Part shown: in pieces, positions 6,428 to 9,013 of the stretch
Position numbering within the stretch: the first letter of the stretch is position 1
How the letters are laid out: every line of letters starts with the position of its first letter
IMG/VR virus record: IMGVR_UViG_3300013128_000029
Location: 1-27,685 of that record
Reading direction: 5' to 3' (one strand)
DNA from: a virus
Length of the DNA stretch: 27,685 nt
Made by a program: the position numbers and the translations under genes
The notes under the pieces: model-generated
What the model was told of the DNA's origin: nothing
Database searches by the model: none
Seen by the model: the letters and a program-made list of their open reading frames with translations, nothing else

Positions 6428-8425
6428 TTAAACCTTGTCCCAGTTCGTGTTGATGTCTGGTTCCGCGACGAGCTTGACTGGGCCAGCCGGGCCGGGAACT
6501 TCGTGAGTCATGAACTCACACATTCGTTTGGCGATGTAGTCCGCATCTTTCGTTGCACACTCCACGACGATTTGATCGTGAACCGTGAGGATGATATGGG
6601 CTGATGTTGGAAATTCGGTTCGCAGGAAATTGTCCACTGCCAACATCGAAATGTTCTGGTAGTCACCCGCAGCAAACTGCGTTGGGTTGTTGGCAGCAAC
6701 CGTTGGTTCTACGGGTTTGACGTTGTAGTACCGGCGCCGACCCAGCGGTGGAATCTCCACGTACTCTTCGGCGTTTGCAGCGTTGTGTTGTGCTTCACAC
6801 CACGCAGCAATCTCCGGGCATGCACGGTCAAACTCATTCGCGATCTTGGTGATGAACCCGGGGGTCAGCGTAGCCCGCACAGCCGCTGGCGTGTTGGGGT
6901 CGTCCTTGAGGTTGTCGCAAATGGTCTTCGGAGATGCGCGGTAGTTTCGAGCGTAGACGACGCGCTTTGCGATGTCGCGCAAGTCCTTGCGTTGACGAGA
7001 CTTGAGGTCCAGCTTCGTGAACGTTGCACCGAACACGTCAGCGCAAACCTCGGAGTGAATGTCCCGCGTGGGGTCGTTGAAGGCGTCGATGAGTTTCTTG
7101 CACCCCGCGCGTGCCGCGATGATGCGGTACTCGACCTGCGAAAAGTCGGCGCCCACCAGGGTGCGACCCTCGGTTGTTTGCACGATCGCACGCAACCACT
7201 TTGGCCAGTTCTGAAAATTGGGCTGCTCGCTCGACCAACGTGACCCGATGGTGCCCGTGGATTTCCAGTGCACGTGCAACCGGTTGTTCTCGTCCACAAG
7301 GTCAGGGAGCTTGATGACGAAGGTCGAGAGCTGCTTGGCATACTCGTCGAATTTCACGAGTGCGCGCACAACCGGGTGTTCCAGGTACGGGATCAATGCC
7401 TTGATTCCGGTCTGAGGCGTCGCGGTCTTCTCCGTGTAGAACTGGACGGGATACCCCAGCCTGTCGTACAGAAGCTGCTGTCGATGGTCGCTGGCCCGGG
7501 GGTTGAAGTCTGGCCAGCTCATCTGCTGCCGGATGTACTGCAAGGCTGCATCCCGCATGCCTTGAAGTTTCACTGCAATCTCCACGCGACGCTGCTCGTT
7601 GATGGGGATTCCGTAGCGCCCCATGCGCCCGGCCAACTCCATGAGCTGAACTTCCATCTGCGCGATGTGCGTTTGCTCGATGTTCGCTACCCGCTGCGCC
7701 AGGATGGGCGTCAACCATTGTGTCGCCAACGTGTCGAGCGCGTTGTAAATCAGAAGCTGCTGGAGCGTTCCGCGGCCCGCGCGTTCCGTCTTGCGGTAGT
7801 CCACTTTCCATGCGGGGATGTCTAGGAACTGCTGCGCGACGAAGCCCAAGTCGTGGTCCAACTCCGGGTCCGACACGTGGTGGTACACGAGGTTGTCGTA
7901 CACCGGGCCAAGACATTCGAGGTTGTGGCGACGCAGAACCTCCAAGTCGTACCCCATGTTGAAGAACATCTTGGGGATGTTCGCGTCTCGAAAGATGGTC
8001 GTGCACAGGTTCATCAGCCGGGTCGTGTCTGCTGCGCCCAGCGACCCGTCGGTCAGGAACGACACGGCATCATCGGTGCCAGCGAAGGACACACCCAGGA
8101 CGTGCAACTTGCAACTGTACTGGTCGAGCGCATCCCGCTTCCCCACGCCATAGTTTTCCGTGTCGATGGCGACCGCGCGTCCCTGTCGGTAGCACTGGTC
8201 GATGTAGTTCACCGCCTCGTTGACGCCAATGTTCCCCCGTCCTTGCGGCAGGATGTAGTACGGTCGGCCCTTGAATGCGTACCCCTCACGAGAGATGCGC
8301 AGCGCACGCTTGATGTCCTCGATCGCAACTTCGTAGTACTGCTGCGCACCACGAAGCATGAACGCCGGGGAATACGTGGGGATGAAGTAGGTGAGGTCGT
8401 CACCCGTGGCCAAGGGGGTGTTCAC
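6428..8425 (-). CDS. Family A DNA polymerase with 3'-5' exonuclease and a UDG-like N-terminal motif
   Basis: Replicative phage polymerase of the Pol I type without a 5'-3' nuclease. The exonuclease motifs are intact: VAIDTEN (Asp88, Glu90), NMGYD (Asn156, Asp160) and YNALD (Tyr227, Asp231). Polymerase motif A is GADFSQVEYR (Asp427, Glu432). Motif B is RDIAKRVVYARNY (Arg483, Lys487, Tyr491, Tyr495), with Tyr at the Phe762 position of E. coli Pol I and Arg496 where a Gly is usual. Motif C is TVHDQ (Asp617), with Gln618 in place of the common Glu. Residues 14-25 (FIPTYSPAFMLR) look like the C-terminal HPS motif of a family 4 uracil-DNA glycosylase, and the gene just upstream encodes the rest of such an enzyme. 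GTG 8425 overlaps the glycosylase stop (GTGA). Confidence 0.92.
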   Translation of the reverse strand: MNTPLATGDDLTYFIPTYSPAFMLRGAQQYYEVAIEDIKRALRISREGYAFKGRPYYILPQGRGNIGVNEAVNYIDQCYRQGRAVAIDTENYGVGKRDALDQYSCKLHVLGVSFAGTDDAVSFLTDGSLGAADTTRLMNLCTTIFRDANIPKMFFNMGYDLEVLRRHNLECLGPVYDNLVYHHVSDPELDHDLGFVAQQFLDIPAWKVDYRKTERAGRGTLQQLLIYNALDTLATQWLTPILAQRVANIEQTHIAQMEVQLMELAGRMGRYGIPINEQRRVEIAVKLQGMRDAALQYIRQQMSWPDFNPRASDHRQQLLYDRLGYPVQFYTEKTATPQTGIKALIPYLEHPVVRALVKFDEYAKQLSTFVIKLPDLVDENNRLHVHWKSTGTIGSRWSSEQPNFQNWPKWLRAIVQTTEGRTLVGADFSQVEYRIIAARAGCKKLIDAFNDPTRDIHSEVCADVFGATFTKLDLKSRQRKDLRDIAKRVVYARNYRASPKTICDNLKDDPNTPAAVRATLTPGFITKIANEFDRACPEIAAWCEAQHNAANAEEYVEIPPLGRRRYYNVKPVEPTVAANNPTQFAAGDYQNISMLAVDNFLRTEFPTSAHIILTVHDQIVVECATKDADYIAKRMCEFMTHEVPGPAGPVKLVAEPDINTNWDKV

Positions 8426-8943
8426 TTGGCTTCACCTGAACCCAGTTGCGCGGCCAAGTTGATTCGATGCACCCCACCCCGGCGACCCTTGATGGTTTCC
8501 GTTGGTTCGTAAAGCGCACGCACGGACTCGCTGCCGAACCCGATCACCATTCGGGGTTTCACCACACTGAGTTCCCCCTGCAATCTCGGACGGCAGAAGG
8601 TTGCTGCTTTGCGAGCAACCTGCTCAGGGTTGATCACGTTCCCGTTGGCCTCAGTGATGGACTTGGGCCGACACAGAATCGTGTTCGTGAACCAGAACTC
8701 CGATCGCTCCGCACCTGCGTTGGCCAGCATGATGTCGAGAAACCGGCCTGCTGTCCCGGAGAACACGCGATCGTGCAACCCGTCGTAGTACGAGGGAGCT
8801 TCGCCCACGATCGCGACGTGCGCTGTCGGGTCACCCTCGGGGTGAATCTGCTTGTCCCCTTCGAGCGGGCAACCCGCACAGTTCGGAAGGACCAAGAGCC
8901 CACGGTGGAACTGTCGCACCAATCCCTCTGGCTTGTCGTCCAT
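8422..8943 (-). CDS. Uracil-DNA glycosylase, family 4-like Fe-S type, apparently lacking its C-terminal motif
   Basis: Would remove uracil from DNA. Four cysteines suited to an iron-sulphur cluster are at positions 22 and 25 (NCAGC), 91 (NTILCRP) and 117 (TFCRP), as in family 4 enzymes. VGEAPSYYDG (about 46-55) is the uracil-binding, water-activating motif, followed by FSGTAGRFLD. MVIGFGSES (about 132-140) is the next conserved strand. The protein stops after a short tail (residue 173), before the 'PTYHPS/A..LR' motif that normally completes the fold; a similar sequence opens the overlapping polymerase gene. I choose ATG 8943 because AGAAGGAGG lies seven bases upstream. An in-frame ATG at 9012 would add 23 residues but overlaps a structured RNA element. 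The protein may be complete in trans, shortened or inactive. Confidence 0.8.
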   Translation of the reverse strand: MDDKPEGLVRQFHRGLLVLPNCAGCPLEGDKQIHPEGDPTAHVAIVGEAPSYYDGLHDRVFSGTAGRFLDIMLANAGAERSEFWFTNTILCRPKSITEANGNVINPEQVARKAATFCRPRLQGELSVVKPRMVIGFGSESVRALYEPTETIKGRRGGVHRINLAAQLGSGEAK

Positions 8944-8970: not shown

Positions 8971-9013
8971 GGTGTCGCTCGGTTTGCCGAGTGACCGTCC
9001 ATGACGCGACACC
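8971..9013 (-). other. Three-way-junction RNA structure candidate
   Basis: A closed three-way junction can be drawn without mismatches. An outer 7-bp stem pairs 8971-8977 with 9007-9013. One inner hairpin has a 5-bp stem (8978-8982 with 8987-8991) and a 4-base loop; a second has a 4-bp stem (8996-8999 with 9003-9006) and a 3-base loop. Four unpaired bases (8992-8995) join the inner hairpins. It ends 27 bases upstream of the chosen glycosylase ATG at 8943. It could act in the leader of that gene or as a processing signal after the ssDNA-binding gene. Confidence 0.5.

Follow-up and report, generated by a model that had tools for sequence, protein, structure and literature searches.

In the phage studied here, a fusion of uracil-DNA glycosylase (UDG) and family A DNA polymerase (PolA) is split into two overlapping genes. 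This split was seen in one contig only, while the fusion architecture itself is already known and was published for phage PaBG (gp205) and its group (PMC7412058). That an ancestral UDG-PolA fusion was broken by gene fission inside the UDG domain is well supported. With a rough probability of 0.6 we favor the reading that the two chains of this broken fusion would presumably assemble into a UDG-like domain, weakly or non-catalytic and binding uracil or DNA, that is tethered to the polymerase. Both genes lie on the minus strand of the window, i.e. the whole analyzed stretch of 27,685 bases, which is one virus record (IMGVR_UViG_3300013128_000029). They comprise the following features:

8422..8943, minus strand: gene of a truncated uracil-DNA glycosylase, family 4-like, 173 aa, ATG at 8943 and stop at 8422 (Pfam UDG)
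8593..8880, minus strand: stretch holding the four cysteines of the Fe-S cluster, C22, C25, C91 and C117, in the numbering of the 173-aa frame (alignment)
8755..8808, minus strand: motif A, VGEAPSYYDGLHDRVFSG, with E41 and F54 of Thermus thermophilus (Tth) UDGa kept and E47 replaced by Asp (alignment to Tth UDGa)
8683..8685, minus strand: N87, equivalent of the uracil-binding Asn N80 of Tth UDGa (alignment)
8432..8437, minus strand: Shine-Dalgarno sequence of the polymerase gene, AGGTGA, 6 nt upstream of the GTG (sequence; 6-nt match)
8422..8425, minus strand: GTGA shared by the end of the glycosylase gene and the start of the polymerase gene, whose frames are in -1 relation (sequence)
6428..8425, minus strand: gene of a family A DNA polymerase with 3'-5' exonuclease, 665 aa (Pfam DNA_pol_A, 1.9e-48; DNA_pol_A_exo1, 1.3e-11)
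8351..8386, minus strand: UDG motif B, FIPTYSPAFMLR, polymerase residues 14-25 (alignments; Pfam match of the joined frames)
8371-8369, minus strand: Ser19 of the polymerase in place of the catalytic His, Tth H155 (alignment)
8288..8347, minus strand: helix after motif B, polymerase residues 27-46, corresponding to the C-terminal helix of fused UDG domains (AlphaFold secondary structure and alignment)

In the glycosylase frame, the Pfam UDG match (E 1.2e-16) covers profile positions 2 to 101 of 141 and ends there, and the frame lacks motif B and the C-terminal helix. By alignment to Tth UDGa (family 4, PDB 1ui0), the four Fe-S cysteines typical of family 4 UDGs are all present, and E48, F61 and N87 correspond to E41, F54 and N80. 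In contrast to the Tth enzyme, D54 stands at the place of E47, an Ile at that of N89, and the counterpart of H155 is a Ser in another polypeptide. A longer open reading frame from a GTG at 9012 is possible, but it is the ATG at 8943 that is preceded by a strong ribosome-binding site (AAGGAGG). Scores against the NCBIfam models remained below their curated cut-offs, with 67.1 bits versus 125.3 for TIGR00758 (family 4 UDG) and 66.6 bits versus 189.95 for TIGR03914 (UdgX). The UdgX uracil-DNA binding proteins are alike in their UDG fold and four-Cys class, whereas the UdgX score is far below the cut-off.

The polymerase frame carries its exonuclease at residues 79-245 and DNA_pol_A at residues 293-663 (Pfam), and from the GTG at 8425 its N-terminus reads VNTPLATGDDLTYFIPTYSPAFMLRGAQQYYEVAIEDIKRALRI; its first 46 residues hold motif B followed by the helix. 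When the two frames were joined, the Pfam UDG score rose from 61.5 to 70.6 bits and the match reached position 140 of 141. In addition, motif B of the polymerase aligned column by column with that of the fused relatives L002, L003 and L113. Judged from these sequence comparisons, motif B at the polymerase start is homologous to the UDG motif B and not a chance resemblance. A preliminary description of the sequence had proposed that the glycosylase frame holds the N-terminal motifs and the four cysteines but stops before the C-terminal motif, and that the missing end of the UDG, motif and helix, opens the polymerase gene ahead of the exonuclease. Both proposals were confirmed. The same description placed the catalytic His at Ser19, correctly according to the alignment, and this position sits in the polymerase and not in the chain of the UDG core. 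Within the polymerase domain, residue 496 in the O-helix is an Arg (YARNYRAS) where relatives have the Gly that follows the conserved Tyr (YGLNYGAG). This is an unusual replacement, the position being conserved to at least 90% in the polymerase alignment. Long insertions inside the polymerase domain of L021 and L025 may be inteins. An intein-like insert was also seen in the UvrD/Rep helicase of the phage (15327-18503), where the Pfam Intein_splicing match over residues 624-974 is below the cut-off.

Single-protein patterns found few relatives, and alignment queries were needed to collect them. Protein searches yielded PMBT14, ctfzr933, Rctr197k, P744 and others, in which UDG, motif B, exonuclease and polymerase form one frame, and the N-terminus of a putative DNA polymerase I in the PDB (9qhs) matched UDG. 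The nearest IMG/VR polymerases (L002, L003 and L015-L020) are all fused in one frame, as are 69 of the next 72 loci; the exceptions are L041, a short fragment, and L109 and L110, which gave no UDG match, while L078 is cut by the contig end and still fused. Among loci found from the UDG side, 61 of 76 are fused, and the others are mostly stand-alone UDGs, together with L183 (UDG at the C-terminus of DnaE) and some splits elsewhere. A search of prokaryote genomes returned one weak locus. In total, 164 fused UDG-motif B-PolA open reading frames were obtained, 134 of them distinct by polymerase sequence, so that homologues with both parts in one frame, which the preliminary description had asked to look for, do exist. 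In PaBG gp205, PMBT14, P744 and ctfzr933, the UDG with motif B, the 3'-5' exonuclease and the family A polymerase are homologous to the domains found here and follow in the same order; unlike in these fusions, the cut in the UDG domain of this phage separates the Fe-S core from motif B, with the stop at 8422 and the start at 8425 in different frames. The UDG part of ctfzr933 matched Tth UDGa with an E-value of 1.6e-43 and has its catalytic residues intact, thus the UDG-PolA architecture includes family 4 glycosylase domains with their full catalytic equipment.

In the polymerase tree, the phage falls into a group of 10 rows (97/96 support), the other members of which are fused, although it sits on a long branch and its exact position is unsure. 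As its polymerase is nested among fused ones, the parsimonious reading is that a fused ancestor was split. The closest UDG relative found (L113, an uncultured phage in IMG/VR; tblastn E 1e-26) is fused to PolA. L113 resembles this phage in its upstream neighbors, an AAA ATPase and a DUF669-like protein in the same order (by eye), and in the length of the loop, which runs IDL-23 residues-YVIPLFHPAFLL in L113 and INL-22 residues-YFIPTYSPAFML across the cut in the joined frames; it differs in being one frame and in having the His in motif B. The nearly unchanged loop length also fits a recent event. Stand-alone viral UDGs (e.g. L125, L131, L137, L172 and L177) carry their own motif B. Glycosylases of the same length with a full C-terminus of their own had been named as evidence that would speak against a broken domain; since the stand-alone viral homologues have motif B and the glycosylase of this phage does not, an independent, complete glycosylase was rejected. 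Because 134 distinct relatives are fused, the loop of L113 is uncut and stand-alone UDGs keep motif B, the two genes are best explained by fission of the known fusion, as the preliminary description had suggested as one of its options.

The cut falls in a loop that tolerates change, as the same stretch is longer by about 70-90 residues, with several CxxC pairs, in L002, L003, L015-L016 and L018-L021; the distance from a conserved Gly to motif B is 122-143 residues in these relatives versus 51 in the joined frames. This CxxC insertion before motif B is zinc-ribbon-like. In none of the other IMG/VR loci examined did a cut separate the Fe-S core from motif B. UDG-PolA genes are split at other places in L010 (Kuura), L014 (ctLwi270), L012 (Youna2), L033, L148 and L152, where the cuts lie within the exonuclease or polymerase, some with short open reading frames between the pieces. 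A UDG is likewise tied to a replicative polymerase in the Nickie-like phage DnaE (L011, L183), but there it sits in one frame on the C-terminus of a DnaE-type polymerase III alpha, another polymerase family, apparently as a separate UDG-polymerase link.

The split between Fe-S core and motif B is seen in one metagenomic contig only. A sequencing or assembly indel in a gene that is really one fused frame would agree with the fusion of all close relatives, with a joined loop of nearly the length of that in L113 and with the single contig. However, such an indel would be confined to the roughly 12 nt that separate two stops, where no homopolymer is longer than 2, and would have to create the observed start. 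The GTGA overlap, already reported in the preliminary description, was verified, both genes have a Shine-Dalgarno sequence and a start of their own, and both pieces retain conserved residues. When 31,311 single-base indels were simulated in the genes of the 27,685-nt stretch, the first start fell at a 4-nt overlap in 4.2%, a 4-nt overlap combined with a 5-nt Shine-Dalgarno sequence in 13 (0.04%), and the combination with a 6-nt Shine-Dalgarno sequence, as observed, in 2 (0.006%). Of the starts of this phage, 12 were examined, and 4 of them, the polymerase start included, have a 5-nt Shine-Dalgarno sequence. Since the observed geometry is so rare among simulated indels, a sequencing indel is improbable, and the split is taken as real on the basis of this one contig. 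Programmed frameshifting, which would join the frames at a low level and give a short UDG fragment next to a full fusion, is suggested by the overlapping frames in -1 relation and by the fused ancestor. It is nevertheless extremely improbable: no slippery heptamer of the type X XXY YYZ is present in the approximately 12-nt overlap stretch, for which reason it was rejected, and the Shine-Dalgarno sequence directly before the GTG points to re-initiation instead.

Next to a genuine split, the question is whether the two halves meet. In an AlphaFold model of the polymerase alone (overall pLDDT 85; alignment of 21 rows only), residues 1-26, including motif B, scored below 50 and the following helix about 70. 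Low AlphaFold scores are common at N-termini in general. In the model of the fused L002, the same segment forms a strand (290-294) and then the HPA turn with a pLDDT of about 93-94; disorder alone and order in the fusion fit a domain that is completed by the upstream piece. Fold searches with the L002 model returned only polymerases from the PDB and full-length phage polymerases from a viral library, nothing decisive. As the last piece of the domain opens the polymerase, the two proteins probably must meet to complete it, and from these models the assembly of a glycosylase domain from two polypeptides is plausible. The observations establish the fission, the homologous origin of the two pieces and the substitutions, and an unused N-terminal remnant on the polymerase would look much alike. 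It is thus conceivable, though rather unlikely, that the halves are not reassembled, the glycosylase fragment decaying and the polymerase keeping an unstructured remnant. This would be in line with the lost His of motif B and the E47 to Asp change, with the disordered motif in the isolated polymerase model, with the occurrence of the split in one contig only and with the degenerated UDG domains, lacking motif A, of other phage PolAs (Cilsick L008, GiKK L009). On the other hand, the four Fe-S cysteines and three pocket residues are kept, each gene has a strong ribosome-binding site of its own, and motif B and helix are still conserved in the polymerase. In L008 (T5-like) and L009, the polymerase N-termini resemble UDG remnants with a motif-B-like piece (ATNPA and ATVSPA, respectively); literature on the T5 polymerase N-terminus contained nothing directly usable.

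For the favored two-chain domain, the following mechanism is proposed. Fission left two translationally coupled genes, the first encoding the Fe-S core and base pocket and the second the last strand of the UDG domain, motif B and the C-terminal helix, followed by exonuclease and polymerase. The two chains would meet non-covalently and complete one UDG-like domain at the polymerase N-terminus. With His replaced by Ser in motif B and Glu by Asp in motif A, this domain would, by the kinetics of the Tth enzyme, be a DNA or uracil binder with little or no excision activity.

Activity of the assembled domain as a glycosylase, in spite of the Ser, is very unlikely. In its favor, a residue other than His serves at this place of motif B in other members of the superfamily (Asn in MUG, Met in TDG), and the equivalents of E41, F54 and N80 are kept. 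Against it stand the Ile at the N89 position and the cost of H155S in Tth UDGa, where k2 falls by more than three orders of magnitude, about 3,000-fold (7.2e-5 versus 0.23 per s), while Km stays near wild type (7.6e-7 versus 9.7e-7 M; PMC5387724), so that weak or no excision is expected here. The earlier suggestion that the Ser favors reading of uracil over excision agrees with the H155S kinetics as regards the presumed loss of excision. The reading itself, in which the UDG core docks on the motif-B tail as a separable subunit, the Ser pocket binds without excising and uracil sensing is coupled to synthesis, is only a tentative possibility. Of 70 dereplicated fusions, 51 retain the motif B His and 19 have lost it (Ser in 7, Ala in 5, Asp in 3, others in 4), and the Ser cases are scattered at several places on the polymerase tree (by eye). 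As about a quarter of the unsplit fusions lost it, loss of the His recurs across the fusion family and did not follow from the split.

Polymerases that carry a UDG domain are common among phages, and little on the role of this domain was found in the literature searchable here. The recurrent loss of the His suggests that in many phages the domain is a DNA or uracil binder and not a repair enzyme. This is comparable in idea to vaccinia D4, described in PMC10253040 as a UDG doubling as processivity factor. The natural fission inside the UDG domain provides a ready two-subunit system to ask whether the domain acts on uracil.
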